Assembly (NCBI RefSeq): GCF_037893015.1
Contig: NC_133666.1
Location: 622,461,156-622,525,155, forward strand
Reading direction: 5' to 3'
DNA length: 64,000 bases
From: Macrotis lagotis
Lineage: Eukaryota > Chordata > Mammalia > Peramelemorphia > Peramelidae
Made by a program: the position numbers and the translations under genes. The notes beneath the pieces were generated by a model. The model was given only the letters and a program-made list of their open reading frames with translations, was not told where the DNA came from and made no database searches. Numbering within the stretch: the first letter of the stretch is position 1; each line of letters begins with the position of its first letter. Of the stretch, positions 8,253 through 54,170 are shown one piece after another.

Positions 8253-8342
8253 GTGTGATGGAGATTCTTAATCTCTCAGATTTTTTTCTCTCTCATTTTG
8301 TGAATGTCTTCATCCTCTTCAAGAAGTTAACATTGACTTCAG
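8253..8342 (+). pseudogene. Copy 1 exon 1: signal peptide
   Basis: Acceptor CTCCCAG, GTGTG leader, ATG at 8258, 28 codons (MEILNLSDFFLSHFVNVF ... LTLTS), then phase 1 at G|GTAAGT. It is one codon shorter than copies 2 and 3. Lysines near the end (FKKL) make it a slightly weaker signal peptide than copy 2. Confidence 0.65.
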
Positions 8343-8695
8343 GTAAGTGTATTTGCTTCTCTTTGACTCTCAGGGACAAGGAATACTAAACACTGAGGGT
8401 TGAACATATAGAGATTCTATCCCAATTCATTCCCCTCCAAAACCATTCCCTCACACCCTCCTAGTGCTTTCTGGAGATTTTCTCAACTTTCTTCTTTTTT
8501 CTATCCTATAGCCTACTCCATTGGTTGCTTCCTTAACATTTTCCCCATGCTTCCTTACACTTTACTTTCCTTCCCCACCATCCAATTTTAGTTTTCTGTC
8601 TTTCACACATTTCTTGCAAAAACCTTGTATAACCTTCCACCTTCTGTCGTTCTTTTCTCTGATCTTCTTTCTCTTCTTCCTGCCTAATTGAACAG
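8343..8695 (+). other. Copy 1 intron 1
   Basis: 353 bp, GT...AG, ordinary pyrimidine-rich sequence with no repeat recognised. Confidence 0.6.
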
Positions 8696-9038
8696 GACAG
8701 TTCTCAGTGATTGGACCTACAAGACCCATCCAGGCCTCACTTGGGGGAGAAGCAGAGTTACCATGTTACCTGTCCCCACCTCAGAGTGCTCAGTACATGG
8801 AGGTGATCTGGTTGCAATCCACAAGGGTGGTACATCTCTATAGAGATGGGGAGGATCATTTTGGAGATCAGGATTCTAATTACAAAGGGAGAACAGAACT
8901 AGTGAGAGATGCTATTACAAATGGGAATGTCACCCTGAAGATCCGGGATGTGAGACTCTTGGATGCAGGAAGCTATAAGTGTCTTGTCGAGGATGGTTTT
9001 TACCAAGGGGAAGCTGATAATGGAGCTGAAGGTCTTAG
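8696..9038 (+). pseudogene. Copy 1 exon 2: IgV domain with 1-base insertion
   Basis: 343 bp against 342 in the other copies. It reads QFSVIGPTRPIQASLGGEAE, ELPCYLSPP, VIWLQ, RVVHLYRDG, GRTELVRDA, NVTLKIRDVR and DAGSYKC: a full Ig core with an NVT sequon. The extra base lies in the GATAATGG stretch (about 9019-9020), where copies 2 and 3 have GATTTGG and GATATGG, and it shifts only the last strand. Confidence 0.75.
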
Positions 9039-11184
9039 GTGAGGAGCTGGGGCCTGGATTGGACATGTTTATGCAACTGTGTGGGAGGAGGAGAAGACAT
9101 ATTTTACCAGTACTATTATTAATAGAATCACAGGATAGCCTAGTTGGAAGGGAACTTAAAGATCATGTATTCTAACATTTTTCCAAACAAGAAAACTCTC
9201 TCTACATGCCCTAAAAGTCCCTATTTCTATTTGGCTTATATCCTTGACCTCTAGTCTGATGTCTTACACTTAGAAGATGCTTAAGAAGTTCTTGTTGCAT
9301 TTTATAGAACTTCTGACCTCTGCTCAAAGACTTCTCATGAGAAGACCTTTTGTCTACCTAAGGAAGGAGCCAGTTGCATTTCTGGTTAAACTTAGTCATT
9401 AAGATGTTTTTGTTGACATTAAGTTTAAATCATCCTCTCTGAAGTTTTCACCCATTGTTACTAATTCTATATCAGAGGAACAAGTGGAACAGGTCTAATT
9501 CATTTTCCATTTTTATTATCTATGTAAAACTGAATCAATAATTTTTCTTTTTTGTTCCTTAGTTTCCTCATTTATAATAGGAGAGGGTTGGCCTTGATAG
9601 TCTTGTTCATCTATTTTATTGTCTATCATTATCTATGATCTTATGATAATTACATAATGATTTTATCACCTTAGTCTTTCAGAGTGAGGCTGGCTATATC
9701 ACCCTTGAGGAGACTAGGAGACTTTGAGGAACAGTGGAGTTACCTTTCTCTAATGCTTTCAGAGTTACCATTTTATTGTAACTCTTCCATTATTCACTGT
9801 CATGATTAGCACCCTAGTTCTCTTTAATGAATTAATATCAGAATATCTACTAAAATATTGCAAGAATAGAATTACAAATATTTCCTCTTTGGAGCAAGCT
9901 CTTCCCTATATCACCAGAGTCCAAATGGATTGTAGAAGTAGGTTCAAGCTAATGGAAGTTTCTATATAACACTGATCCAATCAAACTGACTTCCAAAAGT
10001 AACTTAGTCTAAGAATGGTTAAGTCTATCTCCATACTTCCATTGTACTTAGTTCTTTAGATTCCTTGGGACTTTATTTTTTTCTGTTTGGCTACAAGCAA
10101 ATTCCTGGAAGCACCTCAGGCTCCAGATGCCCTGATGGTGTCTTTTGAAGCTCTCAAGGTGCTAGCCATCTCAAAGACTCTTTACCAAAAAACAGGAAAA
10201 ATGCTTACACTACAGACAGAAGGAACAACATGGCCATGTGTTCTTAGTTTCAAGCTGGCTCTAGGTGAAAGAGAATTCAAGGATCCTCTTCCCACTCAGA
10301 GGCCCACAAAGTTGTATTTCATAGCATCTTGTTCTCTTTGAACACCAAGTCCAGAAGAGCAAATTTAGGATTGATGTATGGAGAAATTTTCTAACATATG
10401 GAACAATACCAAAGTGAAAGGAATCCCCAAGATGATGATAATGTTTGTCCTTCTTTCTTGAAGAGGACCATGACATCAGGGAGGTGATACCATGACAAGC
10501 ACATGAATTGGATTTTAGTGAGGGGGCGCTGTGCTAAGTCACCAGTCTCACTTTCTCCTTTGGAGTCAGATATGAATCAGGACAACCAGAGATGGCTCTG
10601 AATGTGAGGCAATCAGGGTTAAGTGACTTGTCCATGATAACTCAGCTTGTAAGTGGCAATAATCTGAGGCAGAATTAGAACTCCCATCCTCTTAACTCCA
10701 AAGCTCTATCTACTATATCACCTAATTGTCCCTCTCTGTGAGACTGGATAACTACTTGTAGGATAATCTCAAGGTAGAATCTGATATAAATGTGTGTTGA
10801 AGAAGAGAGACTGCTGAGTTTTCTTCTAATCGTTAGATCTTGTAATCATCCAAAAAAGAACACAAAATTGCGCCCCAATCCTTCTTATACTCTCTGGTGT
10901 GATAAGTGCAGCTTAATGATATATATCACAAATAAGTGGGGATAAAACCAGGTGATGTGGCCTGAGCTTGGGATGGAGAAAGGATATAGGCATGGTAATA
11001 TTGTTGGAAGGGGGAGGAGTGCCTCTTTTGTGATGCAAAGATGGGGCAAGAATAGCAGGGGCTAATGGGCCATAGAAATACTCTTGTGCTCTGCTTAGTC
11101 AGGGTGTGAGAGTGGGAGCTAGGGACGAAGTTGCTACAAGGATTGGTACATTACTATTGAGACTTATATGCAATTTTGTTTTAG
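9039..11184 (+). other. Copy 1 intron 2
   Basis: About 2.1 kb, homologous to intron 2 of copies 2 and 3, with an extra antisense MAR1-like SINE (10432-10733). No IgC exon was seen. Confidence 0.55.
10432..10733 (-). mobile_element. MAR1-like long SINE
   Basis: Antisense. Contains CATGACATCAGGGAGGTGAT, GAGGGGGCGCTGTGCTAAGT and the tRNA-like part near 10615-10733. Present only in copy 1's intron 2. Confidence 0.7.
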
Positions 11185-11292
11185 GTGAAGAAACTGTGTC
11201 ACAGATGTTGCTACAAAGATACTTTTTCTTCCTTGGTATATTTTGGTTTATTTTGTATGTAATATTTTTATTCTACATGCTGCTAATCCAAG
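11185..11292 (+). pseudogene. Copy 1 exon 3: first membrane segment
   Basis: 108 bp, open, GEETVSQMLLQR then YFFFLGIFWFILYVIFLFYM. Acceptor TTTTAG, donor CAAG|GTAATT. Intact here, but it cannot be read in frame after the shifted IgV exon of this copy. Confidence 0.62.
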
Positions 11293-12060
11293 GTAATTAT
11301 GAGGGGAATATGGGGCAAAAGCTTCCTATCTGTCTCAACAGGCCTGTCTGACAAGGAATTTGAAGTTTTGGGAATCTTTTGCCTAGTCCCCATTCACTTG
11401 TCAAGGCTTATCCCTTGTCCTCCCAGGACACTCTATGGTCCATGTTCTTCAATGTCCACTCATAGAACCTTGTTCTTCCCAAGAACCCTTGTAATTATGT
11501 GATTACTTTAATTTCCATTCCCTCATCATCACATAGCATATTCTATATTCCTCTAGGGTCCTTTGAGACTTATTAGTCCTACCTATCTATTATGGCCTTC
11601 TTTCACTAAATTCATTCATCATATGTTCATCAATATACTATATCCAAAGCATGTTAGACTTCATGAAGTTACAAAATGTCTATTTCCTCTTTTCCTCTCT
11701 GCCCCTCAGTCCCAATCCCTGCCCCTGTTTAGGATAGGTAAGATAAGGGTACAAATAAAGATCACCTTTGACTTTTAAAGGAATTTTTAAAAGTTTAAAT
11801 TAACCAGTATTTTTGTTAGCTGGCTCACATTTTGTAGTGGGGAAGGAAGTTGACATTTTCATAACTTGGTACATGCCCTTTATAATTCAATAACTTGTAC
11901 TTGCCCTCAGAGAGCAAACAATGTCTGTGAGAGTAAGTCAGATACAAAACTGAGTTAAGTTCAAAGTGGAGCTCTGAATGAGAAAGGGAGAAATCAATTT
12001 TACTGGTAATAAGAAGGGGTCAAGAAAGATTCCAATGAGACAATGGCTGAGAAGTATCTT

Positions 12061-12222
12061 TTTTTGTTTGTTTTTGTTTTTATTTTTGAAAGGCAATGGG
12101 GTTAAGTGACTTGCCCAAGGTCATACAGCTAAGTAATTATTAAGTGTCTGAGGCCAGATTTGAACTTAGATACTCCTGACAACAGGGTCAGTGCTCTAAT
12201 CACTGTACCATCTAACTACCCC
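12061..12222 (-). mobile_element. tRNA-derived SINE (WSINE type)
   Basis: Antisense copy with a T-rich start and AGTAATTATTAAGTGTCTGA; diverged head near 12200. Confidence 0.75.
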
Positions 12223-12372
12223 TAAGAAGTATGTTGAAGGAAGAACGAACTTAGATGAAAGTGGGGGTGGGTTGGAGATAATTCTTGCCTTGGGAGTATA
12301 GAAGGAAAGGGGAAAGGACTGCATGAAGAGGAAAGACAGAGACCAGTACTGCTTGACTAAAATTTAAAATAC

Positions 12373-12850
12373 TTGGATCAATCAAGAAAGAAGTATTTAT
12401 TGAGAATTCACAGTACACTCGACCCTGTACTAGTCATTGGGGATACAAAGACTAAAGGGGAAAATTCTTGCTTTGAAGGAGCTTACATTCTATCAGAGGA
12501 GACAAAATGCACTTATATATCTGAATTAGAAATACAGAATAATTACAGAGAGGTGCTTTTAGCATCCTTTAGGTTTCATCTAGCATGTGGAAAGTGTGAA
12601 TTGAACTGATATTTTGGGGGGAAAAAGCCCTAGAGATTCTAAGAGGTAAAGTTTAGGAGTGAGTGCACACTAGAACAGGAAATAGCCTGTACAAAGATTG
12701 AGAGTTGGAAAATAGATGGGGAAGAAAAGCAAGAAAGTGCAAAGCATAGATCTTAGAATATTTGAAGTCATGTGGAATAGTGTTCTAAATGTGGGGCCAG
12801 ACTGTAAAGGGCTTTAATTTTGAATTTAGGCAACTCAAAGAAGGGTAAAA
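12373..12850 (-). mobile_element. L2-like LINE relic in intron 3
   Basis: AAGTATTTATTGAG..., CATTGGGGATACAAAG and GGAGCTTACATTCTATCAGA are typical of a common marsupial L2-type region read in antisense. Shared by copies 2 (25790-26330) and 3 (51660-52200), so it predates the duplication. Confidence 0.45.
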
Positions 12851-13628
12851 ATCTTGAGATGATCATGAAAGTTTGGAAGAGAGTTGTATTTTGTGGCTAA
12901 GACAATCATTTAATATTTATACTTATTATAAACTCAGTATTAGGAATAGAAGAGAGTGAAGTTATGTCAAGGGTGGTGGTCTGGAAAAAGTATGAAGAGG
13001 CCAAAAGATGGGAGTTCATGGTGAACAAAAAGAGTAGGTTGAAAAAGAATGAGGCACAGGGAAGATAGTATGAGTAGAAATTTGTAGGTTTTGGAAAAGT
13101 CAAAAGTATGACTATCTGACTGAGTTGGAATAGAGGACTAAGACCTGTGACTTGAGAAGATTAAGAGACTGAGTTTTTGAATGAATATTTTTGTAGGAAT
13201 ATCAACAGAAAAACATATGTCTTTGTATATATGATAAGATTCGGAGTGGAAAGAAATACTATGAGCCTTCTCAATGAAAAAGGAAGAATGATATGGAGGG
13301 CAATAAAAACTGTCAACTAATTCAGTTGTGTATTTAGCTATAGTTTGCCTCAAAGGAAGAAAAGATTACTGAGTGATAGCAATAGAGTTGAAGTCAGAAA
13401 GTGGCAGTGGAAGTGAATAGCTTTCTAAGTCCCTCTCCCTCTCAAGGACCAATGTGTTGGGGACCTGAAAGAAAGTACAACAAATATTGGAAAGCCCATT
13501 CAAAGGATGAAGTGTCCCTGAAGGCCAGACAGATCTCACTGAGTACCAGAAACTGGAAGGAATAAGAGAGAGAAAGGACCACAATGAAAACAATTTTTTT
13601 GAATTAAGGAGCACAATGCAAGAAAGAG

Positions 13629-13726
13629 GTCTCAGACACTTAATAATTACCTAGCTGTGTGGCCTTGGGAAAGCCACTTAACCCCGTTTGCCTGGAAAAA
13701 ACCAAAAAATAAAATAAAATAAAGGA
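13629..13726 (+). mobile_element. Partial SINE (3' half, WSINE type)
   Basis: Begins CTCAGACACTTAATAATTACC and ends in an AAAAT-rich tail. The tRNA-like head is missing. Confidence 0.7.
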
Positions 13727-13787
13727 GCATTTGTTTTTAAGGAGCAGGAATGCCAGAGCCACAATAGAATGTTGAATAAACTATTCT

Positions 13788-13791
<4 letters not shown>

Positions 13792-13872
<81 letters not shown>

Positions 13873-13884
13873 TCTCTCTCTCTC
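13792..13884. repeat. (CT)n microsatellite
   Basis: About 45 CT units with two small interruptions. Confidence 0.95.
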
Positions 13885-14084
13885 GCTATATATATGTAAA
13901 GTTTAGTTTTGGAAACAGGGAACATGTTTCATCTATTATCCTAGCTAAGGTGCAGCTGCTAATGATATATCCATGAGAGCAATTAGATTATATTTGGAAC
14001 TTTCTGTGAGGAGGGGGCAGCAGAGAAAACAAGACTGAAATCATGCTCTCAGGGTTGGGGACTTCTGTCATTCTATTTTCACAG

Positions 14085-14188
14085 GTCAAATCCCTGGATG
14101 GGTGAGATTAGTGGAATTTTGGTTCTGGCTTCTGCATTGGAAATTGAAATGGCTCTTTTTTACTTGTGGATACAGCACAGATGCAGAG
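14085..14188 (+). pseudogene. Copy 1 exon 4: second membrane segment
   Basis: 104 bp, open when entered in phase 2 (SNPWMGEISGILVL ... FYLWIQHRCRG). It is unusual among the copies in also being open in phase 1. Donor GAG|GTAAGA. Confidence 0.58.
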
Positions 14189-15390
14189 GTAAGAAGGGAG
14201 GGATGGGCAGCAATGTGATCAAATCATAGAAAGATAATAAACCTCCAATTGTGTAATCTCTAACAGCCTAGAATCTGAGTGTCCTTCAGTGTACAATTCT
14301 TACCCCCTCCTTGTTCAATATAACCTGATCTGTACCCACTTTCTTTCCAGCCTGGACCCTGAATTTCCCTCTCCTCCTTAACACGCCCCACCCCAGAATT
14401 ACTATTTCCAAGATCTCTCTATACTTCTCTCTTTTCTTTAGCTCTATCATCTTCTCTTGATAGCTCAACCTAACTCCTCTATACATCTGTCAATAAAAAA
14501 AAACTGATTATCTAGATCATGAAGAAATCTTTATTTCTGTGAGGAAGTTTATATCCCTAGATTCATGTGAAGTGAGAAAATGCCCCAAGAGGCTCAATCA
14601 TCCTCCTTTTTGTACCATTTCCCTCTTTCATGGATGTCCCAGACATACCCGAAGTCTCATTTGTTCCTGCCTTCATACCTGAGCTCTTCAAGCAGTCTTA
14701 CATTTGGCTTAAGTAAGTCAAGTAACCTCAAGTACAAGATAGAAAAAATGAGGAAAGTTAAAAGTTTGTTGAGAAACAGAAATAGAGAAGGAAACAGAAA
14801 GATATACATACTTCTTAGGAAGAAGTCATCAGGAGGAATCAGGAACTCTAAAATGGAAAATGCATATTAAAAAGCACCACCTTGGGAACTCTCACCCTAC
14901 CCTATCAGACCCCTAAACTAAAATAAAGTAATTTCAAGTATGCCTGCATTTGACTTAATTACAGGTGAATATCCTTTCAGACAGTTATTGAGAAACCAAA
15001 TTGTGCCTAGGGAAAACATACTCAGTTGGGATGGGGAGAGGGTAGGGTTGGTGTAGGAGTTAAATAGGATGTAAGGGAAAGAATCATCACAAGATCAGTG
15101 GGAAGTTTGGGGAAGTGGGATTGGATGAAGAAGGCAATGAATTAACCTCTGAATGGGCTAGGAAGAGATGAGTAGGGGAGAGGTAAGAAAGGTCACTCTC
15201 CTTTTCTTCATGCTCTTTTTTTCTTCCTAGTTACCTTAGGCCCTTTGACCCTTCTTTTCCCTGCCTTCTCCCTCTTCTCTCCTCTGCTTCCTTCTGGTGT
15301 CTCTCTCTCTTTATTATTTTTGTTCCCCTCTCCTTCCTCATTCCTCTCCCCTTTTCTGAATGCATCCTCTTCTAAGAGGTATTGAATCAC
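14189..15390. other. 3' flank of gene copy 1; last exon not found
   Basis: 14230-14380 matches the intron after exon 4 of copies 2 and 3, and 14926-15210 matches DNA just after their last exon (GTAATTTCAAG..., then GAATCATCACAAGATC...). The stretch between them (about 14400-14925) does not show the GATGAAACATCA core of the last exon, so it has been replaced or has decayed. Confidence 0.45.
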
Positions 15391-15397
15391 TGAGGTA

Positions 15398-15700
15398 AGG
15401 GCAGCTGGGTGGCACAGTGTATAGAGTACTGGTCTTGGAGTCAGGAGGATAGAAGTTTGAATCTGACCTCAGACACTTGACTCTTACTAGTTGTGTGACC
15501 TTGGGCAAGTCACTTAACTCTGCCTCACATCCAAGGTCATCTCCAGTTGATCTGATTCATATCTGGCCACTGGACCCAGATGGTGCTGGAGGAGAAAGTG
15601 AGGCTGATGACTTAGTAAAGTACCCCTTCACTCAAGTCCAATTCATGGCATCACCTTCCTGATGACATGATCTTTCTCAGAAATGAAGGACAAAAACATT
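15398..15700 (+). mobile_element. MAR1-like long SINE
   Basis: Sense: GGGCAGCTGGGTGGCACAGT, TTGTGTGACCTTGGGCAAGT, CATATCTGGCCACTGGACCC, GATGACATGATCTTTCTC. About 300 bp. Confidence 0.8.
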
Positions 15701-15959
15701 AACCTTATCTGACACACAGGCTTGTTTCCCTCCATCGTCCCCCAATAAGCAAGGAGGCTGATGCCTTCTCTAGTCTCTAAGTTGTAGGGAAATTGGAGTT
15801 GGAGATATATTTCCAAGCCTAGTGGCTGAGGACCACTTTCCTCTGTCAGGCTCCCCAAGTCCTTGTTCTGCTTGAAGCCCTTGACAGTCACCTCCAACCC
15901 TTTCAGTCACATCCTCTCTGTATCTTCTCCCTGTGGGTCAAGTTTCACGGTTCATGGTG

Positions 15960-16865: not shown

Positions 16866-16869
16866 TTAT

Positions 16870-17640: not shown

Positions 17641-17654
17641 ATAACTGATATAGG

Positions 17655-22446: not shown

Positions 22447-22539
22447 GTGTGATGGAGAGTCTCAATCTTTCAGGCTCCTTTCTTTCTCATTTTGTCATTG
22501 CTTTCATCCTCCTTCTCAAGAAGTCAACATTGGCCTCAG
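22447..22539 (+). CDS. Copy 2 exon 1: signal peptide
   Basis: Preceded by a pyrimidine-rich tract and AG. Five bases (GTGTG) lie before the ATG at 22452, so the true 5' end of the transcript must lie further upstream. It encodes 29 codons, MESLNLSGSFLSHFVIAF followed by a leucine-rich stretch and ending TLAS. It ends in phase 1 at a good donor (G|GTAAGA). The same five-base leader and phase occur in copies 1 and 3. Confidence 0.72.
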
Positions 22540-22601
22540 GTAAGAATCTTTTCTTCATTTTGACTTTCAGAGACTAGGAATGGGATTCTAAACAGTGAGG
22601 G

Positions 22602-22692
<91 letters not shown>

Positions 22693-25600
22693 TTCTATCC
22701 CTACTTACTATCCTTACAAACCATTCCCTCTTATTCTCTTAGTCTTTTCTGGAGATTTTCTCAATTTTTCTCTTTCCTCTCTGCTATAGTCTACTCATTG
22801 TCCTGATATATACTGTCACCTCCATTAATTGCTTTTTAAAAATGTTTCTCAGCTTCCCTCATTCTCTTCTTTAATTTTTTCCCTCCTCCTCATATAATTT
22901 TAGCATTCTGTCCTTCATACCTTTTTTTTTTGCTTTTTTTTTGTAAGGCCATAGGGTTAAATGATTTGGCCAAGGTCACACAGCTAGATAATTATTAAGT
23001 GTTTGAGTTCAGATTCGAACTCAGTCAGGACCGGTGCTCTATCCACTGTGCCACTTAGCTGTCCCCTTCTTACCCTTCTTGAATAAATTTTGTATATCCT
23101 TCCATCTTCTACTGTTCTTTACTCTAACCCTCTGTTTCTTCTTCCTGCCTGATTAACAGGACAATTTTCAGTTATTGGACCTGCAGGTCCCCTTCAGACC
23201 TCATTTGGGGATGAAGTAGAGTTACCATGTTACCTGTCCCCACCTCAGAGTGCTCAGCACATGGAGGTGGTCTGGTTGCAATCCAGTAGGGTGGTACATC
23301 TCTATCAAGATGGTGAGGATCGTTTTGGAGACCAGGACCCCAATTACCAAGGGAGGACTGAACTAGTGAGAGATGGTATGGCAAATGGGAATATCACTCT
23401 GAAGATCCACAATGTGAGACTCTTGGATGCAGGAAGCTACAAGTGTCTCATTGAGAATGGTTTTTACCAAGGGGAAGCTGATTTGGAGCTGAAGGTTTTA
23501 GGTGAGGATTTGAGACTGGACTAGATAAGTTTATGAAACTGTGTGGAGGGAGAAAAAATATCTTCCTGTTATTAACTGCTATTAGCAGAATCACAGGATA
23601 ACCTAGTTGGAAGGGAACTAAAAGGTAATATACTCCACCACTTTTCTGAACAAAAAACCTTTGCAAGAAACCATGCCCTGCAGGTCCCTATTTTCATTTG
23701 GCTTGTATCATTGGCCACCTAGCCTGGTGCCTTGCACATGGAAGATGCCCAATGGATGCTTGTTGTATTTGATAGAGCTTCCAACCTTTGCTCCAAGACT
23801 TCTAATGAGCAGTCCTTATGCTTTCTTGGTGAAGGGGGCCCTTTCCATTTATGGATGAATTCAGTTATTAAGAATTTTTTGCTGACATCAAACTTAAATC
23901 ATCTTCTGTAGCTTTCACCATTGTTACTTATTCTATGCCAAAGTGGAACAAGTCTGATTTATTTTCCATTTTTTCTGTCTTTGTAAAATCCGGACAAATC
24001 ATTTTGCTTCTGTGATCCTAAGTTTCATCTTTGGTAATAGAGGTGGTTTGGGCTCCACAATCCTGTTTGTTTTTTAGCTTTAAATCTATGATCTTATGGC
24101 AAGTACACAACTAATTTCTCATCTTTGTCTTCCAGAGTGAGGCTGGCTACATCTCTTTTCAGTAGACTAGGGTACTTTTGAGGAATAGTGGGGTTACCTT
24201 TCTCTAATCTTTCAAAGGCAGCATTCTATTATGTCTCTTTCCTTATTGACTGCCAGTGATTACCACCCCTATTCTATTTAAAAATTGATGTCAGTTAGCT
24301 TTTACATAGGAATATTCACTGACATTGTAAGAAGAGAATTACAAATAGTTTTCCTAGGGATACTCTCTTTCCTATACCACTTCAGTCCCTGTAGATTGTA
24401 GGGAGAGGGTGTGCTCAGACCAATGAAAGTTTCTATGTAGCCTAGATCTAATCAAATTGACTTCCAAATGTGACTTAAGTCTATGAAAAGATGTATACCT
24501 CCATATATCTACTGGAATGAGTTCTTTAGGTTCCATGGGACTTTGGTTTTCACTGTCTGGCTACAAGCAAATCCTTATAATGATCTTAGGCCCCAGATGC
24601 TCTGATTGTGTCTTTTGAAGCACATAAGAGCTTAGCCATATGAAAGGCTAAAAGCTGGAAAAATGTCTACACTAGAGACAAAAGTGATGACATGGCCATG
24701 TTGTCTCAGGTTCAACCTCACTCTGAAAGATGATCAAAATTCCTGTGCCCACTCAGAGGTCCCCAGAAGCCATGTATCATAGCAGCTTGTCTTTTTTAAA
24801 CACCAAATTCAGAAGAACAAGTTTAGACTTGATGTATGGGGAAAAAAACTATCTTATAATTAGAGCCACACCAAAGGGAAAGGAATCCCTACTAGAATTA
24901 ATTAACTATCTCTCTCTATGAGACTTTAAGCAAGACTGAATGACCACTTGTAGAGAGAGTCTCAAGGCAGAATCTGATTTAAGTGCAATGAGATGTGCCA
25001 CTGAGTTCCCTTCCAACTCTGAAATCTATGTGTATAATATCCAACTAACAGTACACAAAACTGGCCCCTAGTCCTTCTTATAGTCCTGGTATGCCTAATG
25101 ATGTATTACACAAATAGATGGATCTAAAATCTGGTAAAATACCTGAGCTGAGTAAGGAGAAAGGGGATTTAGGCATGATAATGCTATTGGTGGAAGGGGA
25201 AGAATATCTCTTATGGGATACAAAGCTGGGGTAGGAAGTAGCAGGGCCTAGTGGGACCTAGAATATGACCATAAAGATGGCCTTGCCCTCTGTTCAGTGG
25301 AGTGTATAAGTGGAAGGTTTGGAGGGAAGATGGTGCAAGGATTAGTACTTTACTATGTGGGTCCTGAGACTTATGTGCAATTAATTGTGTTTTAGGTAAA
25401 GAAACTGTGTCACAGATGTTGCCACCACTATACTTTTTCTTCCTCATTGTTCTGTGGTTTGTGCTGTATGTAATATTTTTATTATATATGCTGCTATACA
25501 AAGGTAAGTATAATGGGAAATGGGTCAAGGGCTTCCTATCTGGCTTATCAGCATATCTGTTCAGAATATTGACTGAAGAAAGAATTTAGCATCTTTATAA

Positions 25601-27138: not shown

Positions 27139-27212
<74 letters not shown>

Positions 27213-28589
27213 TTAAAATGAAGACAGTTTTGTAAATTAATTAAGGACTAGAAAACAAGAAAGAGATTTGAAGTAAAGGAACATTTGTTATTAAGGAGTA
27301 GGAATTCCAGAGGGCACAATAGAAAGGTGAAAAGATCACTCTTACATATAAAGTTTAGTTTTGAGTACCACAAGGACCATTTATTATTGTGAGGTGCAGC
27401 TATCATATGAGCAACCTAGTTGTACTTGAACCTTGCTATGGGGAGGAGACAGCAAAGAAAACAAGATCAAAATCATTTTCTTAGAGTTGGGGATTTCTGT
27501 CAGTATATTTTCGCAGGTCATATCCCTGGATGGGTGAGATTAGTGGAATTTTCGTTCTGACTACTACATTGGAAATTGAAATGGGCCTTTTTTACTTGTG
27601 GATGCGGCACAGATGCAGAGGTAAGAAGGAAGGGATGAGGGGCGGCTAGGTGGCATAGTGGATAAAGCACTGGCCCTGGAGTCAGGCGTACCTGGGTTCC
27701 AATCCGGTCTCAGACACTTAATAATTACCTAGCTGTGTGGCCTTGGGCAAGCCACTTAACCCTGTTTGCCTTGTTAAAAAAAAAGAAGGGAGGGATGGAG
27801 CAGCAATGTGACAAAATCATGAAATGATAATAAAACTTCAGTAACACTATAGACTCTGAGTATATCTCAGTGTTCATTAATTCATTTTTCATTTATTCCT
27901 TATTTATTCCTCAGTCCCTAATCTTGAGTATTTCTCAACTGGGTACCTTTTAGTTCACATACTGCCCTGACCCATTATTTGGGCCAAATTTTATCACTGC
28001 TCTGACCCAAGAGTGCCCACCAATCCACATTCAGTTATACTTCTGAATTTGTCCTGAATTCTGAATGTGACCCATTTTTCTTTGCAGCCCAGAACCTGAA
28101 TTTTCTTTCTTTTTTTTAAAATCCAGCTCTCCTGGAGTCCAAGCAGTCTTATCCCTTAAGTGTGACTAGTTCCCTATGTTACTTCTATGTCCGTACCCAA
28201 AATATAGAGTCCTGGCACCATCCTGAGTATGGATTTACTAGAATAGAATGTGGTGCATTAAAGCACATTTGTATCCCATATGGAGAGGCCTAACAGCCCA
28301 GGACTGCCAAGGGACCAGAAACATATAGTTTCAGTCCTTCTTCCTCAAAAGACTTGGGAAGGTATATCTTGTTTCTTCTCATAAGCTTATAACTCCTTTC
28401 TCATATGCAGGAATTGTTTTTGATGAAACATCAAGTAGCAAAGAATGGAAACTTGTAACAGCAATCTTATTCCTGGCATTTACAACTGTCATTCCCATTT
28501 TTTTACATATGAAATACTTCTTCCAACAAAGCTCCCAACTAGTGCATGGACCCCACAATGAGGTAATTTCAGGCAGCATTTATATTTGA
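22447..28589 (+). CDS. IgV-only butyrophilin/MOG/SKINT-like membrane protein, gene copy 2 (all exons open)
   Basis: Five exons: 22447-22539 (ATG at 22452), 23160-23501, 25396-25503, 27517-27620 and 28411-28589. The order is signal peptide, one IgV domain, then three hydrophobic segments. The predicted mature start GQFSVIGP is nearly the same as the start of mature MOG (GQFRVIGP). The IgV carries ELPC, a W in VVWLQ, GRTEL and DAGSYKC, the usual Ig core, plus an NIT glycosylation site. Family members are cell-surface proteins of myelin or of epithelial and T-cell interaction; the function here is inferred only from homology. No IgC or B30.2 exon was found. All exons are open and have GT/AG ends, but exon 3 ends in phase 1 while exon 4 is hydrophobic only if entered in phase 2. 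With an unseen small exon the product would be about 270 residues; direct splicing gives a stop at 27558-27560 and about 193 residues with one membrane span. MOG-like and SKINT-like labels are both possible. Confidence 0.72.
22603..22691. repeat. (TA)n plus (GA)n microsatellite in copy 2 intron 1
   Basis: About 33 TA units followed by about 12 GA units. Absent from copies 1 and 3. Confidence 0.95.
22921..23066 (-). mobile_element. tRNA-derived SINE (WSINE type) in copy 2 intron 1
   Basis: Antisense copy with a T-rich start, AGATAATTATTAAGTGTTTG and CTATCCACTGTGCCACTTAG. Not present in copies 1 and 3, so inserted after duplication. Confidence 0.85.
23160..23501 (+). CDS. Copy 2 exon 2: IgV domain
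   Basis: 342 bp, phase 1 at both ends, fully open. It encodes a complete V-type Ig domain: strand-B cysteine in ELPCYLSPP, core tryptophan in VVWLQ, RVVHLYQDG (compare RVVHLYRNG in MOG), GRTELVRDG, NITLKIHNVR, and strand-F DAGSYKC. It ends ADLELKVLG, as in MOG and butyrophilins (ELKVE / HLKVAA). The one clear glycosylation sequon is NIT in the D-E region. Confidence 0.85.
23502..25395 (+). other. Copy 2 intron 2
   Basis: About 1.9 kb, homologous along its length to intron 2 of copies 1 and 3. I looked here for the IgC exon that butyrophilin and SKINT genes carry and found no open exon with a C...W...C pattern. No recent transposon insertion was recognised. Confidence 0.55.
25396..25503 (+). 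CDS. Copy 2 exon 3: first membrane segment
   Basis: 108 bp after TTTTAG, entered in phase 1 and left in phase 1 at AAAG|GTAAGT. It encodes GKETVSQMLPPL followed by about 22 hydrophobic residues (YFFFLIVLWFVLYVIFLLYM). MOG has no equivalent at this place; an extra membrane exon is reminiscent of the three-span SKINT proteins. The three copies keep the same length and frame. Confidence 0.68.
25790..26330 (-). mobile_element. L2-like LINE relic in intron 3
   Basis: Counterpart of 12373-12850 and 51660-52200; reads AAGTATTTATTAATTG and, later, GTCATAAAGGTGTTTAATGA. Confidence 0.42.
27145..27210. repeat. (GA)n microsatellite
   Basis: About 32 GA units; a much shorter (GA)n lies at the same place in copy 3 (52846-52860). 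Confidence 0.95.
27517..27620 (+). CDS. Copy 2 exon 4: second membrane segment, MOG-like
   Basis: 104 bp between TTTTCGCAG and GAG|GTAAGA. Entered in phase 2 it reads SYPWMGEISGIFVL ... FYLWMRHRCRG, which lines up with the MOG membrane exon (YWVSPGVLVL ... FLCLQYRLRG). It leaves in phase 1, matching the next exon. Entered in phase 1, as exon 3 would require, it stops at 27558-27560. A SINE sits 17 bases downstream of the donor. Confidence 0.6.
27621..28410 (+). other. Copy 2 intron 4
   Basis: 790 bp, holds the young SINE; the remainder matches intron 4 of copy 3 (53313-53978). Confidence 0.55.
27638..27782 (+). mobile_element. Young tRNA-derived SINE next to a splice donor
   Basis: Sense copy close to the family consensus (GGGCGGCTAGGTGGCATAGTG...AATAATTACCTAGCTGTGTG). 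Flanked by AAGAAGGAAGGGATG (27623-27637) and AAGAAGGGAGGGATG (27783-27797). Confidence 0.9.
28411..28589 (+). CDS. Copy 2 exon 5: third hydrophobic segment and C-terminus
   Basis: After TCATATGCAG, the frame that continues from exon 4 reads GIVFDETSSSKEWKLVTAIL and a hydrophobic run ending IFLHMKYFFQQ. This matches the layout of the second hydrophobic exon of MOG (TFDPHFLRVPCWKITLFVI). The frame runs through a possible donor (GAG|GTAATT at 28563) to a TGA at 28587-28589. Copy 3 has a TGA at the matching site, so I take this as the last coding exon; a splice at 28563 remains possible. Confidence 0.6.
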
Positions 28590-40715: not shown

Positions 40716-42021
<1,306 letters not shown>

Positions 42022-46054: not shown

Positions 46055-46220
46055 AAATTATATGGCATAGTGGACAGAATATTGGATTTGGAATCAAGAA
46101 GATTTTCACTTGCTAGCTATGTGACTTTGGGCAAGTCATTTAGCCTTTTTTGATTTTAATTTCCTTATTTATAAAATGCCTATAATAATAGCACCTGGCT
46201 TACCAGATTGTTAGTAGAGT
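46055..46220 (+). mobile_element. MIR/THER-type SINE relic
   Basis: TGCTAGCTATGTGACTTTGG / GCAAGTCATTTAGCC core; counterpart of 5810-5995. Confidence 0.55.
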
Positions 46221-46228
46221 CAAATGAG

Positions 46229-46279
<51 letters not shown>

Positions 46280-46312
46280 TATATGTATATATACATATAT
46301 AAAAATATATAT
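46229..46312. repeat. (TA)n microsatellite
   Basis: About 42 bp of pure TA then imperfect TATATG/TACATA. Confidence 0.9.
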
Positions 46313-48067
46313 ACTACTTACCAAAAATTAAAGTTCTATCTGAATGCTAGTTATTATTATTGCTACTAATATTAACAATAAATATTAGCATATATATGCA
46401 AATGAAGAATAATTACCAAAACTAGAAGGCATTGCTCTTTTAGGAACATAAACCAAAAGTCATATGAACAGAACAACTAAAGAAAAAAAGCACACTCAAA
46501 TATGCAGTAATCAACATGTGTAGCAATGAATATATACAATTATATTCAAAACACATTTCTCATGGGCATCTCTTTAGTATTTTTATCTGAATAAATGTCT
46601 AACAATTTCCTTAGGTTCTTTAAGTTAGTCACTGGGATGATTGTTTATCATTAGTCTCCATTTGCTCAATGTAATCCAATTAACTCTCCTATGGAAATAG
46701 GTACTTGTGGTAAACAGTTTTGACAGGTCCTTCTCTATTTTCTGGGATTATGCTGTAAAAAAGGCAAACTGCCCAATCTCTCAAAAACTTAATATGGGTT
46801 AGGTTGCTATCAGTCAGCTAACTTGTGAGTCCCTGGATGCCAAAACTTCTCAACAGAATTCCATCTTATTGTTTAAGGTCTTCACAATATATTTATAATC
46901 AACTACCTTTTCCTTCTTTCATACATTTTCTGAGCTGCAGTCATGGCTAATTGACTTTTCTCTTCAATAAAAGATATGTTGATATTGAGTAGTTGCAGTA
47001 CCTCTTTCATTTGAGGTAATAAAACAAAAGTCAACAGGTTACTGTTCTTATTATTCAAACATGAGCAAAGATGGTGTAAATATATATTATCATTCCCAGT
47101 GGAATTGCATATACTAGAAATGACAGATGTGGATTCCCTTGACTTTTCCTTTTTTCTCAGAGTTTCCAACATTTTCACCTGTGCAGTAGCCACTGAGATG
47201 CTATGAGCAACCTTACAACCAGTTAGACATTCAGATTTTAGAAAATATATTAATTATTAATTATATTATTGATATAATATATTAGAAATATATCAAGGAG
47301 AGAAAATACCTATAGAGCAAATCTATGCAGGAGAGTGGAAAGAACAGGTAGATCTGGGGTATGCCATTTTGGGGTGAGTGTTGAAGACAATAGGAATAAG
47401 GAAGTTAGAAGTAAGGGATGTATAATAGAGTTTGTATATTGGCAGACAGGATTTCAGAATCACTAGACTGGAGAGAGTGAGGGAGTGGGATTCTGCTAAT
47501 CACTGAAAAATGAACCTGAACTGAGTATCAGTGACTTGAGGGAAATCTGCTAAGGCAGACAGAAGATTCCACTTAAGCTTTTTCCTTTAAGTCCAACCTT
47601 ATAAGAAGTGAGAGTATCAGTCCTGAGAGATTCACAAGGTTTACCTCAAACCAGGCAAGAGCAGTAGGTGTGACCTGGGGATTCTATACAGAAGGCAAGA
47701 ATTGGAAATATGAGGTTCATGTGATCTGAGAAAAAATGCTCTGAAGCACTGTTGAAAGCTCTGGGGAGAAGAATGAGACCACAGTTTTGATTCTAGATCC
47801 AAGGTTGATAGAGGATTTTTTGGATAGTCTTTGGAGTAGATAGTCTTTGCAGCTAGAATGGGAAAAATAGAGGTTTTTGACAATTATCACACTGATGTTC
47901 CTTGTCCTTTTCATAACTGTGATTGTTCTTGACCTAGTCCTATTTTCTTTGTTTCTAGCAGAAATACTGATCAAAATTAAACATTGACTTCTTGTTTCCT
48001 TGCAATATCACATGTCAAAATTCACATAAATCATGAATATCTCCTCCCTTTCTGTGTCCTTTCTCAG

Positions 48068-48160
48068 GTGTGATGGAGATTCTCAATCTCTCAGGCTCCT
48101 TATTCTCTAATTTTGTGATTTTCTTCATTCTCCTTCTCAAGGTGCCAACATTGGTCTCAG
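48068..48160 (+). pseudogene. Copy 3 exon 1: signal peptide
   Basis: ATG at 48073, 29 codons (MEILNLSGSLFSNFVIFF, then ILLLK, ending TLVS), phase 1 at G|GTAAGA. Open. Confidence 0.65.
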
Positions 48161-48460
48161 GTAAGAGTATTTGCTTTTCTTCAACTCTCAGGGAGTAGAG
48201 ATTGAGGGTTGAACATATAGAGATTCTATCTCAACTTAGTACCATTCCTTAATACTCTCCTGGTCTCTTTGTCTTGAAATACTGTCCCTTGCATTACTTT
48301 CTTCTTTAACATTTTCCCATCTAAACTTACACTCGATTTTCCTTCTCCACCATCCAATTTTAATATTTTTCCTTCACACCTTTCTTGCATAAACCTTGTA
48401 TAACCTTCCATCTTCTGCTATTCTTTTCTCTAACCTTCTGTCTTCTTCCTACCTGAACAG
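48161..48460 (+). other. Copy 3 intron 1
   Basis: 300 bp, GT...AG, no repeat recognised; the shortest version of this intron in the window. Confidence 0.55.
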
Positions 48461-48802
48461 AACAGTTCTCAGTGATTGGACCTGTAATATCCATCCAAGC
48501 CTCACTTGAGTGAAAGGCAGAGTTACCATGTTACTTGTCCCTACCTCAGAGTGCTCAGCATATGGAGGTAATCTGGTTCCAATCTACCTGGGTTGTTCAT
48601 CTCTATCGAAATGGGAAGGATTAGTTTGGAGACCAGGACTCTAATTACCAAGGGAGGACTGAACTGGTGAGAGATGGTATCATAAATGGGAGTGTCACCC
48701 TGAAGATCCAGGACGTGAGACTTTTGGATGCAGGAAGGTACAACTGTCTCTTTCGAGATGGTTTTCAAAAAGATGAAGCTGATATGGAACTGAAGGTCTT
48801 AG
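48461..48802 (+). pseudogene. Copy 3 exon 2: IgV domain with two stops
   Basis: 342 bp. It begins QFSVIGPVISIQASLE, then TGA at 48511. After that [24 protein letters not shown], then TAG at 48622, then GDQDSNYQGRTELVRDG, NGSVTLKIQDVR, DAGRYNC and ADMELKVLG. Cysteines and tryptophan are all present, so the loss is by point changes only. Confidence 0.8.
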
Positions 48803-50638
48803 GTGAGTATAAGGGACCTGGATTAGATATGTGTTTGCATCTGTGTTGGGGGTGGAGAGTTGTCTTCCAAGCACTGTTGTGAACAGAATCATAGGATTGT
48901 CTAGTTGGAAGGGAGCTCAAAGTTCACATAATTCAACACTTCTTTAAATAAAAAACTTCTTTCTATATGTCCTGCAGACCCCTATGTTTATTTGATCTAT
49001 ATCCTTGGCTCCTAAACTGGTGCCTTGCACATGGATAATACTTATTGGATGCTTGTTGCATTTGATAGATTTTCCAATCTTTGCTGAAAGACTTCGAATG
49101 AGCAATCCTTTTGCTTCCCTGTGGGTGGGGCCCTTTCCATTTATGAATAAATTTAATCATTAAGAATTGTTTGTTGATATCAAATTTAAATCATCCTCTC
49201 TGAAGCTTTCGCTAGTTGTTACTAATTTTGTACCAGAGGCACAAATGAAGCAAGTCTAATCTATTTTCCAATTTTACTGTCTGTGTAAATCTGGTCAAAT
49301 CATTTTTATTTTATGCTCCTAAATTGCCTCATCTGTAATATAAGAGGGTTAGACTTTATAGCCTTGTTTGCCTCTTTTAGTTTTAAATCTATGATATTAG
49401 GATAAATATGTAGTGATTTTCTAATCTTAGTCTTCCAGTGTGAGGCTGGCTATTCTCCTCTTGGGAGACTAGGGTACCTTTGAGGAACAGTGGAGTTACT
49501 TTTCTCTAAGGCTTTCAGAAGAACCATACTATTGTGCCTCCTCCATTATTAACTATCAGTCATTATTACCCCAGTTTTATAATCAATTAATATGTTAGCT
49601 TTGAAACAGAGATGTTTGCTAAAATGTTGGAAGAACATCATTGCAAGTATTTCCTCTTTGGGATTTGGAAATATTCCCAGTCCTAGGGAAGTGTAGGACA
49701 AGTAGGTTCAAAACAAGAGAAATTTCTATATAGTACTGATCCAATGAAATTGACTACCAAATGTGACTTAAACTGTGAATGGAAGAGTCCACCTCAATAC
49801 TTCTACTGCACTGAATTCTTTAGGTTCATTGGGTCTTTAGTTTTTGCTGTCTGGCCATAAGTTAAACCTTCAAATGTCCTCAGTCCCCAGATTCTCTCTG
49901 TCTCTTGAAGCTCACAAAATCATAGCCATCTTTTGCAAAGATTCCTTACTGGAAAACAGAAAAAATGCCTACACCAGAGATAGAAGTAATGACTTGGCCA
50001 TATTTTCTCAGTTTCAAGCTGACTCTGTGAAAGAGAATTGAAGGTCACTCTTCCCACTCAGATGCCCACAGAAGTTGGGTTTCATAGCAGCTTGTCCTCT
50101 TTGAATATCAAATTCAAAAGAACATATTTAGACTTGATAAATGGAAATTATTTTAACAATTGGTACAATACTAATATGAAAGGGACCAACAGATGAACTG
50201 ACTGACTACCCCTCTCTTTAAAACTTTAAACCAAGGTTGTATATCCACTTGTAGGAAGTCTTAAGACAGAGTCTGATTCAAATGTGTATTCAACAATATG
50301 GACCATTGAGTTATCCTCAAACCATGAGATCTTGCAACCATTCAAAAGAATAGAAAGTTGAAGTCTAATCCTCCTTGTATTTCATGGTATAATCAATTTA
50401 GCCTATTGATGTATCTCACAAATAGATGGGGCTATAGGCATGACGATGTTATTGTTGGAAGGGAGAGTCTTGTGGAAGATAAAGTTGGGAAAGGAATAGC
50501 AGGGGCCAGAATTTGGGCATAGAGACTGCCTTGCCCTCTGTTCAATAAGGGTGTGAGGGTGGGAGGTAGGGAGTGAAGATGGTACACAGATTAGTACATT
50601 ACTTCTATGGTCCTGAGACTCTTGTGTAATTGTTTTAG
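48803..50638 (+). other. Copy 3 intron 2
   Basis: About 1.8 kb, homologous to intron 2 of the other copies. No SINE and no IgC exon recognised. Confidence 0.55.
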
Positions 50639-50746
50639 GTGAAGAAACTGTGAAAAAGATGTTGCCACCAATATATTTTTTCTTCCTCAGTACTTTTTGG
50701 ATTATATTGTATGTAATATTTTTGAAATACGTGCTGCTATTCCAAG
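50639..50746 (+). pseudogene. Copy 3 exon 3: first membrane segment
   Basis: 108 bp, open: GEETVKKMLPPI then YFFFLSTFWIILYVIFLKYV. A lysine now sits inside the hydrophobic run. Confidence 0.6.
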
Positions 50747-53208
50747 GTAATTATACGGGCCATATGGGGCAAGGGTTTCCTTTGGGTTCATCATGCATAT
50801 CTGACCAGGGAGAGAACAAGGATTTTGGAACTTGGAGACTAGAGAGTCTTTTACATAGTCCCCATTCACTCACCAAGGGTAATCCTTCCCTCAGGACACT
50901 CTTTGTCCTCCCAAGAAACTCTGCTCCTCCCAATTGACTTTGTAGATATGTGATCACTAGAATTTCCTTCCTCATCTCAAACCCTTCTCTATACTTTTCT
51001 GGGGTCCTCTGAAAGGAAATAGTCATATCTATCCATGGTCTTCTTTCCTTCACCATTCATTCATCATATGTTGATCAATTTAATGCATGCAAAACATGTG
51101 CTAGACTTTATGGAATTACAAAAAGTCTATTTCCTCCCACTATCTCAGTTCCAATTCCTGCCCCTGTGTAGGGTATATGTTAGGGTCTGAATAAAGGTCA
51201 TCTTTAACTTATAAAGTAATTGAGAAAAGTTTACATTAATCAGTATTATTATGAGCTGGCTAATGCTTTACTTTGTAGTATGGAAAGAAGGATGAAGTTG
51301 ACATTTTTATCACTTGGTACACACCTTTGTACTTGTTTTCATAGAGCTAACAATCTCTGTGTCAATGAGTCATCACTATAAAACTAAGATAAGTACAAAG
51401 ACAAGATCTGGGAAATGTACCATGAGAAATATGAAGAGAGAGAAATCAATTTTACCTGATGATAGGAAGGAGTTAAGAAAGGTCCTAATGAGGAGTTGGC
51501 CCCTGAAAAGTCTTGAAGGAAGAAAGGATTTAGATGGAAATGGGGGTTGGTTAGAGATAATTCTTGCCTAGGGAGTAAAGTAAGGAAAGGGGAGAGGACT
51601 GGATGAGGAGAAAAGACAAAGACTAGTATTTTATGGCTAAAATTTATCATACCTGAATCAATCAATCAAGAAAGAAATATTTATATCAAGAAAGAAGAAA
51701 TGTTTATTAAGTACTCAAAGTTTGCTAGGCACTCTAGTAGGTACTGGAGATACAAAGAATAAAGGAAAATCTTTGCTTTGAAGGAGATTTCATTCCATCA
51801 TGGAGGCAAAATGCATCTAAAAATCTGAGTAACAAATACATAATAATTAGGAAGGGATGATCCCAGAATCTTTTAGATATCATCTGAATAGAGGACATAG
51901 GGAAGATGTCAGTTCAGTTGATATTTGAAAAAAAAATCCCAAGGGATTCTAATAGGTAAGGTTTAGGAGCTAGTGCACTGCAGCAAAGGTAAGGCAGATT
52001 GTTGGAAAATGGACTAGATAGAACAATAGGAAGGTGAAATGAATAGGCCTTAGAATGTTTGAACTTAAATAGAATGTGACTTTAACTATGGAGCCAGGAA
52101 GTAAGGGGGTTTAATCTTGAATTTATGTTACTGGAAGAATGGTAGTATTCTTGAGTTGATTAGTGCAATTTGAAAGAGAGTTGTATTTTGGGGGGTGGAA
52201 GACAACAATTTAATATTTAAACTGGTTAACTAAAGTCAATATTAAGAATAGAAAACAGTGAAATCATGCCAGGGGTGTTGGTTTAAAAAGTATCAAGAGA
52301 TGGAAAGTTGGGAGGTGGTGGTGAAGAAAAAGTTTAGGTTCAAAAGCATGAGGCACAGGGAAAGATAGTATGAGTAAAAACTAGTGCGTACTGGGCAAGT
52401 CGATGGTGTGACTATGTGACTGAAAAAGAGTAGTGAACTAAGTCATGGGACCTGAGAAGATTAAGAGACTCAGTTTTTGAAGTAATGTGTTTGAGGTTCT
52501 TATATGAAAAGATTGGAGTAGAAAGAAATATTATGAGCCAGGTCCTTTATCACTGAGAAAGGGAGAATGATCTGTAGACCAATAGAAAATTATCAACTAA
52601 TTGGGTTGTGTATTTAGATAGAGTGAGCCTCAAAGGGTAAAAGAATTAATGAGTGATAACAACAGAGTTGGAGTTTGGAAATGACAATGGAAGTGAGTAG
52701 TTTTCTTAGTCCCTCTTATGGAACAATGTGCTGGGGATCATGAGGGAAGATAAAACAAATTTTAGAAAACCTATCCAAAGAATGAAGCATCTCTGAAAGG
52801 TATCCAGGTCTTGTTGAGTAGCAGAAGCTGGAAAGAAGATAGAGTAAGAGAGAGAGAGAGTAAGGTCTAAAATGAAAACAATTTTGTGAATTAATTAAGG
52901 AACAGAAAACAAGAAAGAGGTTTAAAATGAAGAAATATTTGTTACTAAGGAGAAGGAATTCTAGAGAGCATAATGGAAAGGTGAACAGACCATTATTCAT
53001 ATATATACATACATGAAGTTTATTTTTGTTCATAGGGAACCATGTTATTTCTATTATCCTAGGTGAGACACAGCTTCTAAGGATGCTACCTATATCCATG
53101 AGATCAACCAGGTTATACTTTAACCTTGCTATAGGGAGGGGACAGCAGAAAAAATAAGATCACAGTCATGCTCTCAGGTTGGGACCTTCTGTCAGTATAT
53201 TTTCACAG
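50747..53208 (+). other. Copy 3 intron 3
   Basis: About 2.5 kb with an antisense L2-like piece (about 51660-52200) and a short (GA)n at about 52846-52860. Open reading stretches inside it have no coding features. Confidence 0.5.
51660..52200 (-). mobile_element. L2-like LINE relic in intron 3
   Basis: GGCACTCTAGTAGGTACTGGAG and GATACAAAGAATAAAGG; counterpart of 12373-12850 and 25790-26330. Confidence 0.45.
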
Positions 53209-53312
53209 GTCAAGTCCCTGGATGAATGAGATTAGTGGGATTTTAGTTCTGGTTTCTACATTGGAAATGGAAGTGACCATTTTTTATTTGTGGATACAAC
53301 ACAGATGTAGAG
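53209..53312 (+). pseudogene. Copy 3 exon 4: second membrane segment
   Basis: 104 bp, open in phase 2 (SSPWMNEISGILVL ... FYLWIQHRCRG). In phase 1 it stops after five codons (GQVPG). Confidence 0.58.
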
Positions 53313-53978
53313 GTAAGAAGTGGGTAGGGTGGGCAGTAATGTAATTGAATCACTGGAAGCTAAGAAAACTCCACTTTACAGTCTAAGCAGTATAGAATCT
53401 GAATGTCCCTCAGTCTTTGTGCAACCCTTATCCCTCCTTGGTCAGTATAGCCTGATCTGTATTTGTTCTTCAGTCTCCAGTTTTGAGTATTTTTCAACTG
53501 TGGACTACCCTGACCCTTAATTGTGCCCCAATATCTGCACTTCTCTGATAATTTTGTGTCCCTAATCTACAAATAATCATTCTTCTTAGTGTGCCATCTA
53601 TTCTAAGTGTGAACCACTTTCTTTGCAGCCCAGACCTTGAATTTTCCCTCACTCCTTAAAAAAAAAACTTATCAAAATCTCCTGGTAATCAAATATTTTG
53701 ACTCCCTCAGTGTAGCTAGTTCCTATGTAACCTTGAGTGCTAGGTCTCTCTGCCCTCTTCTATGTCTTTACCTAAAGTCTAGAAGCCTAGAGAAAGAATT
53801 AAGTAAAATAGCTTGTGGAATATAAAACATATTTGTACTCCCATATGGAGAGGCCTAAGAGTCCAGGGTTGCCAAAGGACCAGAAACAGATAGCTGCAGA
53901 CCCTCTTTCCCAGGAGACCTAGGAAGGGATATCTTGTAACTCCTAAATATTAGCTCATAACTCTTTTCTCATATATAG

Positions 53979-54170
53979 GACTTATTTTTGATGAAACATC
54001 ACTTTGGAAAGAATCGAAAGTTACGATGGCAATCTTTTTTGCTGATAATTGTAAATATCATTCCAATTATGCTTCACCTAAAATATTTCTGTCAACAAAG
54101 GCACCATCACAACACCCAATCAATGTCTGGATCTGACTATAAGGTAATTTCATACACGGTCTGCATTTGA
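53979..54170 (+). pseudogene. Copy 3 exon 5: third hydrophobic segment, frameshifted
   Basis: Starts LIFDETSLWKES; one extra T in 54035-54040 shifts the frame relative to copy 2. The hydrophobic part (LLIIVNIIPIMLHLKYF) is in the shifted frame and ends at TGA 54168-54170, the same stop position as copy 2. Confidence 0.6.

Follow-up and report, generated by a model that had tools for sequence, protein, structure and literature searches.

Which gene family is repeated in tandem in a 64,000-nucleotide (nt) stretch of the Macrotis lagotis genome (contig NC_133666.1, positions 622,461,156 to 622,525,155), and does any of its copies still encode a protein? A preliminary description of this stretch, hereafter the window, had proposed a tandem family of genes with one immunoglobulin V (IgV) domain and several membrane segments, resembling MOG, the butyrophilins (BTN) and SKINT. 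We find that a tandem family of BTN/MOG/SKINT-type genes is real. The explanation that we favour, with a probability of roughly 55%, is a small tandem cluster of the BTN/MOG family that split early from the named families and later underwent birth and death, with copy 2 of its three genes as the survivor.

Three tandem copies, one of them open

Self-comparison of the 64-kb window resolved three tandem units (approximately 3.2-17.4 kb, 19.3-38 kb and 43-64 kb), which are 66-76% identical to one another over 12 aligned blocks of at least 1000 columns. Each unit carries one gene copy on the + strand (copy 1, 8258-14188; copy 2, 22452-28562; copy 3, 48073-54143). The copies share the exon order signal peptide, one IgV, a hydrophobic exon 3 and exon 4, and a fifth exon occurs only in copies 2 and 3. 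Because the three exon series sit in long tandem units, they are not a product of chance. Unique substitutions in introns amount to 0.099, 0.128 and 0.115 per column in units 1, 2 and 3, which makes the duplications old. The exon series of the preliminary description stands for its first four members in all three copies, with exon 5 absent from copy 1, but copies 1 and 3 carry inactivating lesions. The exons are as follows.

8258..8342, + strand: copy 1 signal-peptide exon (MEILNLS...), with an acceptor-like CCCAG/GTGTG just 5' of the ATG
8696..9038, + strand: copy 1 IgV exon, its frame shifted by a 1-nt insertion
11185..11292, + strand: copy 1 exon 3, hydrophobic, phase 1-1
14072..14188, + strand: copy 1 exon 4, BTN/MOG-type membrane exon, with a frame-shifting acceptor at 14085
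22452..22539, + strand: copy 2 signal-peptide exon
23160..23501, + strand: copy 2 IgV exon, open, nearest solved relative MOG
25396..25503, + strand: copy 2 exon 3, putative added membrane span, phase 1-1
27504..27620, + strand: copy 2 exon 4, BTN/MOG membrane exon homologue with Glu-x-Glu in its hydrophobic stretch
28411..28562, + strand: copy 2 exon 5, hydrophobic, continuing the exon-4 frame without a stop
48073..48160, + strand: copy 3 signal-peptide exon
48461..48802, + strand: copy 3 IgV exon, with two in-frame stops
50639..50746, + strand: copy 3 exon 3
53196..53312, + strand: copy 3 exon 4, BTN/MOG-type membrane exon
53979..54143, + strand: copy 3 exon 5, with an additional T relative to copy 2 that shifts the hydrophobic frame

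Copy 2 is the sole copy open over five exons. Spliced at GT-AG borders with matching phases, it gives 807 nt and 269 amino acids (aa) with no stop, and its exon 5 ends either at a GAG/GTAATT donor or after 8 further codons at a stop. In copy 1, a 1-nt insertion at 9019 in the IgV exon leads to a stop at the exon 2/3 junction (the part before the frameshift matches Pfam V-set at 2.5e-12), and the exon-4 acceptor just before 14072 has been lost (CAT, against CAG in copies 2 and 3). Exon 5 of copy 1 was not found in the window: the homology of unit 1 to unit 3 ends at 14334 and resumes at 17176, and the stretch 14335-17175, which has no match to unit 3, would have held it. Copy 3 is interrupted in its IgV exon by two in-frame stops, TGA (48511) and TAG (48622). 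Its exon 5 contains a T that copy 2 lacks, so that the hydrophobic reading and exon 4 are in different frames. This length difference between copies 2 and 3 is unpolarised, as unit 1 lacks the exon, and the hydrophobic frame is in phase only in copy 2. Copies 1 and 3, as assembled, are broken; each has several separate lesions in the assembled sequence, too many to come from one error of assembly.

Relatives of the IgV domain

Against solved structures in PDB, the IgV domain of copy 2 matches MOG at 8.3e-33, BTN3A1 at 2.9e-28, SKINT1 at 3.4e-28 and BTNL8 at 1.4e-25, and it matches Pfam V-set at 3.2e-11. The resemblance to MOG and butyrophilins that was noted at the outset is thereby borne out. 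Because of these matches the locus, judged by its sequence, belongs to the butyrophilin superfamily (BTN/BTNL/MOG/ERMAP/SKINT).

We placed the three IgV domains in a tree of 16 rows built on 114 of 121 alignment columns, with a single SKINT sequence; copy 1 was cut at the residue before its frameshift and the stop codons of copy 3 were entered as X. The window sequences form a clade of their own (support 100/99) and lie outside every family clade tested, and MOG forms a separate clade (100/99). A position inside a known family was looked for and not found among these rows, which include no marsupial member of the named families. The free tree sets the window clade beside SKINT1 with support of 47/68. 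Ten groupings, three of them already present in the tree, were put to the approximately unbiased (AU) test. Forcing MOG or ERMAP to be the sister came at no cost (p-AU 0.52 each), groupings with BTN3A or BTNL were unrejected (p-AU 0.082 and 0.116), and those with BTN1A1 or BTN2A1 were rejected at uncorrected p-AU values of 0.039 and 0.014. In this tree SKINT1, MOG and ERMAP appear equally acceptable as sisters of the window clade.

MOG (any of three sequences) agrees with the window consensus at 64/104 positions and SKINT1 at 58/104, and the residues that the consensus shares exclusively with one family number six for SKINT1, five for BTNL3/8, four for ERMAP and two for MOG. Two of the SKINT1-exclusive residues lie within the stretch LSPPQ.

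Domain layout and membrane exons

The preliminary description held that the genes have no immunoglobulin C (IgC) exon, and both IgC and B30.2 exons were searched for in the genomic window with queries and profiles built from family members. Neither was found: tblastn gave best E values of 0.12 (IgC) and 3.2 (B30.2), and a local profile search of 2134 six-frame stop-to-stop segments of at least 20 aa gave 0.63 (IgC) and 4 (B30.2), in a window that ends at 64000, beyond which a far 3' B30.2 exon of copy 3 could lie. A control IgV profile, made without the window rows, recovered copies 2 and 1 with E values of 1.1e-39 and 2.2e-39 and split copy 3 into two matches (1e-17 and 3.6e-10). After these searches of the window we dropped the idea of a hidden IgC or B30.2 exon.

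Membrane exons were compared with ten membrane exons of MOG, BTN, ERMAP, BTNL and SKINT and scored as z against 300 shuffles. With the membrane exon of BTN3A3, exon 4 scores 7.8, 8.3 and 9.9 in copies 2, 1 and 3; with the first membrane exon of MOG it scores 7.5, 8.0 and 6.7. The PDB alignment of copy 2 also continues collinearly into the BTN3A3 membrane segment, a piece that taken by itself is weak (E 0.25). To judge from these scores, exon 4 is the BTN/MOG membrane exon. Its hydrophobic stretch contains Glu-x-Glu in 3/3 copies (LEIEM, LEIEM and LEMEV; 14074-14187, 27506-27619 and 53198-53311), which is unusual for a membrane span. The acidic pair could be matched by a basic residue in the span of a partner, or the segment could be one that does not cross the membrane. 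In copy 2, means of hydropathy over 19 residues are 2.89 for exon 3, 1.37 for exon 4 and 2.22 for exon 5.

Exons 3 and 5 match none of the ten membrane exons compared (best z 1.4 and 2.5, respectively), and against the SKINT membrane exons their best z is 1.9. For exon 5 of copy 2, the second membrane segment of MOG is outside the five best of the ten comparisons, of which the best is z 2.5. The proposal that exons 4 and 5 mirror the two hydrophobic exons of MOG is consequently upheld for exon 4 (z 6.7-8.0) but not for exon 5, where likeness is not significant. Exon 3 had been proposed as an additional membrane segment; splice sites, length and open frame are kept in 3/3 copies, but its substitutions give no significant sign of constraint. 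Exon 3 and exon 4, the latter when read from its upstream acceptor, are both phase 1-1, so that exon 3 can be skipped or included without a frameshift.

A minus-strand match to a SKINT membrane segment at 51504-51653, between exons 3 and 4 of copy 3, was obtained by tblastn (E 0.001, 28% identity, filters off) and was taken as chance.

Placement among the named families

MOG shares with the window genes a single IgV without IgC or B30.2, the top PDB match and a first membrane exon of BTN/MOG type. The window genes differ in forming an IgV clade of their own, in a C-C' loop two residues shorter (3/3 copies), in the added hydrophobic exon 3, in an exon 5 that is not demonstrably the second hydrophobic exon of MOG, and in occurring as tandem copies, two of them broken. 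That the locus is simply the marsupial MOG gene with tandem copies would agree with its best solved match and with the exon-4 scores, but the separate, strongly supported clades are joined by a path length of approximately 1.0-1.2, and MOG and ERMAP records of the Tasmanian devil are listed in PMC6017450. We regard this explanation as very improbable. One-to-one orthology with MOG was rejected on the two clades of the 16-row tree, and a wider group of the window sequences and MOG is unrejected.

SKINT1 resembles the window genes in an IgV score similar to that of BTN3A1, in residues shared in LSPPQ-AQHME and in a possible three membrane spans, the number given for SKINT1 in PMC4861494. SKINT differs in that no IgC was found in the window and in that the membrane exons are unlike the SKINT ones compared. 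A marsupial counterpart or sister of SKINT, with an IgV and up to three membrane spans but no IgC, would account for the position beside SKINT1 in the free tree and for the highest number of exclusive residues, two of them in LSPPQ. Against such a counterpart are the higher identity to MOG, the equal fit of MOG or ERMAP as sister, the missing IgC and the low z values of exons 3 and 5. SKINT-like sequences are also described in PMC4382165 as confined to placental mammals, with none in marsupials or monotremes. The window shows no recognisable flanking gene by which its position could be set against the SKINT locus. On balance we consider a SKINT counterpart rather improbable.

The butyrophilins (BTN3A, BTN1A1, BTN2A1 and BTNL3/8) share the IgV family and, for BTN3A3, a membrane exon to which exon 4 is homologous; they differ in that neither IgC nor B30.2 was found in the window and in that the CFG-face motifs of BTNL3 are not kept. 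ERMAP has an IgV without IgC and its placement as sister is unrejected, but it has a B30.2 domain, none of which was found in the window.

A family without IgC is sustained. The mixed layout that had been proposed for these genes is not, as it depends on an exon 3 that shows no significant substitution constraint and on an exon 5 without a demonstrable relative. The locus is best filed, as far as its sequence goes, as a new branch of the butyrophilin superfamily, perhaps with a variant layout, and it does not amount to a novel type of system. Among the matches listed for the open-access literature on marsupial SKINT/BTN expansion, the family is undescribed.

Selection, splicing and the state of copy 2

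Intron columns served as the neutral yardstick, and substitutions unique to each copy were expressed relative to introns. For the IgV exon the ratios are 0.41 (p 0.0001) in copy 1, 0.61 (p 0.003) in copy 2 and 0.97 (p 0.48) in copy 3, and for exon 4 they are 0.18 (p 0.0006), 0.48 (p 0.017) and 0.92 (p 0.44). Pairwise dN/dS of the IgV exons is 0.38, 0.28 and 0.41 (Fisher p 0.0067, 0.00009 and 0.0044, from rounded counts), and for four exons jointly 0.42, 0.35 and 0.52. Frameshifting indels were counted over the four exons common to all copies, with exon 5 left out, under six filter settings with and without simple sequence; we observed 1, 0 and 0 in copies 1, 2 and 3, where introns predict 5.4-6.6, 5.9-8.7 and 4.5-7.3. 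This depletion indicates that all three copies, broken or not, kept a coding frame through much of the period after duplication. A neutral simulation of copy 2 yields a mean of 3.6 stops, with a probability of 0.024 for none.

The reading of copy 2 as the survivor of an early-split cluster has several points against it. All the evidence is genomic sequence from one species. The depletion of frameshifts is equal in the broken copy 3, so it testifies to a coding past and is no proof that copy 2 is alive. The unique IgV changes of copy 2 fall 10, 5 and 10 by codon position, which gives no hint of protein constraint on that branch alone. Exon-4 dN/dS is erratic on few changes (2.32, 0.31 and 0.97), reaching 2.32 between copies 1 and 2 (1 synonymous and 9 non-synonymous) and 0.97 between copies 2 and 3, and the exon 3 ratios of 0.77, 0.82 and 0.83 in copies 1, 2 and 3 are none of them significant. 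Splicing adds a further difficulty. By an approximate matrix, the frame-preserving acceptor of exon 4 has a score of 1.2 in copy 2 and of 3.1 in copy 3, and it is destroyed in copy 1; 13 nt downstream lies an acceptor that shifts the frame, with scores of 8.3, 7.7 and 11.0 in copies 2, 3 and 1. The remaining signs of life for copy 2 would be its open frame and its substitution ratios.

These points bear first on the possibility that all three copies are dead, copy 2 having lost its function recently and retaining an open frame that no longer yields a functional transcript. Two of the copies carry inactivating lesions, and one of these two, copy 3, has preserved its frame over four exons as well as copy 2. 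In copy 2 the stronger acceptor leads to a stop within exon 4; the weak frame-keeping acceptor and the codon-position counts of 10, 5 and 10 point the same way. What speaks for a living copy 2 is the absence of any stop in 807 nt, which the simulation makes rare, together with its ratios for the IgV and for exon 4. We think that death of all three copies is unlikely, while taking it seriously.

The acceptors also bear on a second alternative, in which the protein is anchored by exon 3, and exon 4, spliced from the downstream acceptor, has left its old frame, giving a single-pass IgV protein with a short tail. A scan for acceptor-donor pairs conserved in three copies with an open frame returned, on the + strand, exon 3, the signal exon (in two nested versions) and exon 4 from the downstream acceptor, the sole exon-4 acceptor so conserved; exon 3 is open, hydrophobic and 1-1 in 3/3 copies. 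The same type of scan returned nothing on the - strand, a weak control as only one conserved donor occurs there. However, constraint is seen on exon 4 in copies 1 and 2 but does not reach significance on exon 3, and the old BTN frame of exon 4 is open in 3/3 copies while the shifted frame is open in 1/3. We give this arrangement small odds.

Copy 3 presents an odd mix, with no frameshift in four exons yet substitutions at the intron rate. It may have evolved fast and then died, or its death may be of middling age.

Under the early-split reading that we prefer, an old separation from the named families would have been followed by duplication and by loss of copies 1 and 3, leaving copy 2 as the surviving gene. 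Its product would be a surface protein with one extracellular IgV domain. Exon 4, of BTN type, would anchor it together with a second hydrophobic exon, and the in-frame exon 3 may or may not be included.

A possible contact ligand

IgV domains of BTN and BTNL proteins meet gamma-delta T-cell receptors (TCRs) through their CFG face, where the motifs NQFHA, WF and DEEAT are given for BTNL3 in PMC6868513. The stretch aligned to NQFHA is two residues shorter in 3/3 window copies. At the position of WF, copies 1, 2 and 3 read LV, LI and LF, and at that of DEEAT copies 1 and 2 read QGEAD and copy 3 reads KDEAD. Since this loop carries a known gamma-delta TCR-binding motif in BTNL3, its shortening would require copy 2 to use another mode of binding or another partner. 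By analogy with other IgV domains of the BTN family, copy 2 would act by contact, as the ligand of a receptor carried by an adjacent cell (probably a lymphocyte), and such a role is plausible by family, through a changed surface. The argument is one of family likeness, a point that also weighs against our preferred reading. The preliminary description had suggested ties to epithelial or unconventional T-cell biology. Tuning of T cells is a candidate role, and a link to epithelia or to gamma-mu T cells, which occur in marsupials and monotremes according to PMC6823204, is speculation.

Other features of the window

Approximately 0.4-0.5 kb upstream of the ATG exon, all three units share a 5' block whose identity is 0.83-0.87 at best in 80-column windows:

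7764-7889, + strand: 5' block of unit 1
21940-22070, + strand: 5' block of unit 2
47645-47767, + strand: 5' block of unit 3

The acceptor just before each ATG is strong (10.5-11.9 in the three copies). Together with the conserved block, this acceptor points to a possible promoter or non-coding exon at the 5' end. Identity between units 2 and 3 is also raised, at 0.83-0.89 against a median of 0.72, between 36449-36600 and 62468-62640. The short interspersed repeats of the window appear to be like those of marsupials.

An intronless RPS4-like copy lies at 41072-41839 on the - strand (256 aa from stop to stop; Pfam Ribosomal_S4e at 1.3e-34). Its RS4NT match begins at model position 6, with the first residues in another frame, and it is probably a processed pseudogene. 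This was the only one of nine open reading frames of at least 100 aa to give matches in a Pfam scan. Rfam returned 0 matches and ARAGORN 0 genes in the window.

Implications

Should copy 2 be silent, the locus would be an ordinary relic of birth and death. At the other extreme, copy 2 could be alive and belong to a sister lineage of SKINT outside the placentals, its protein having a single IgV and three membrane segments, one of which contains a conserved acidic pair; we view this as a long shot. If that were true, SKINT-like epithelial surface proteins would be older than placental mammals, and they might serve the gamma-mu or gamma-delta T cells of non-placental mammals by way of a remodelled CFG face. 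A tandem BTN-family line that combines SKINT-like and MOG-like traits in a marsupial bears on the origin of SKINT, and the locus offers a candidate ligand at the cell surface for the unconventional T cells of non-placental mammals.

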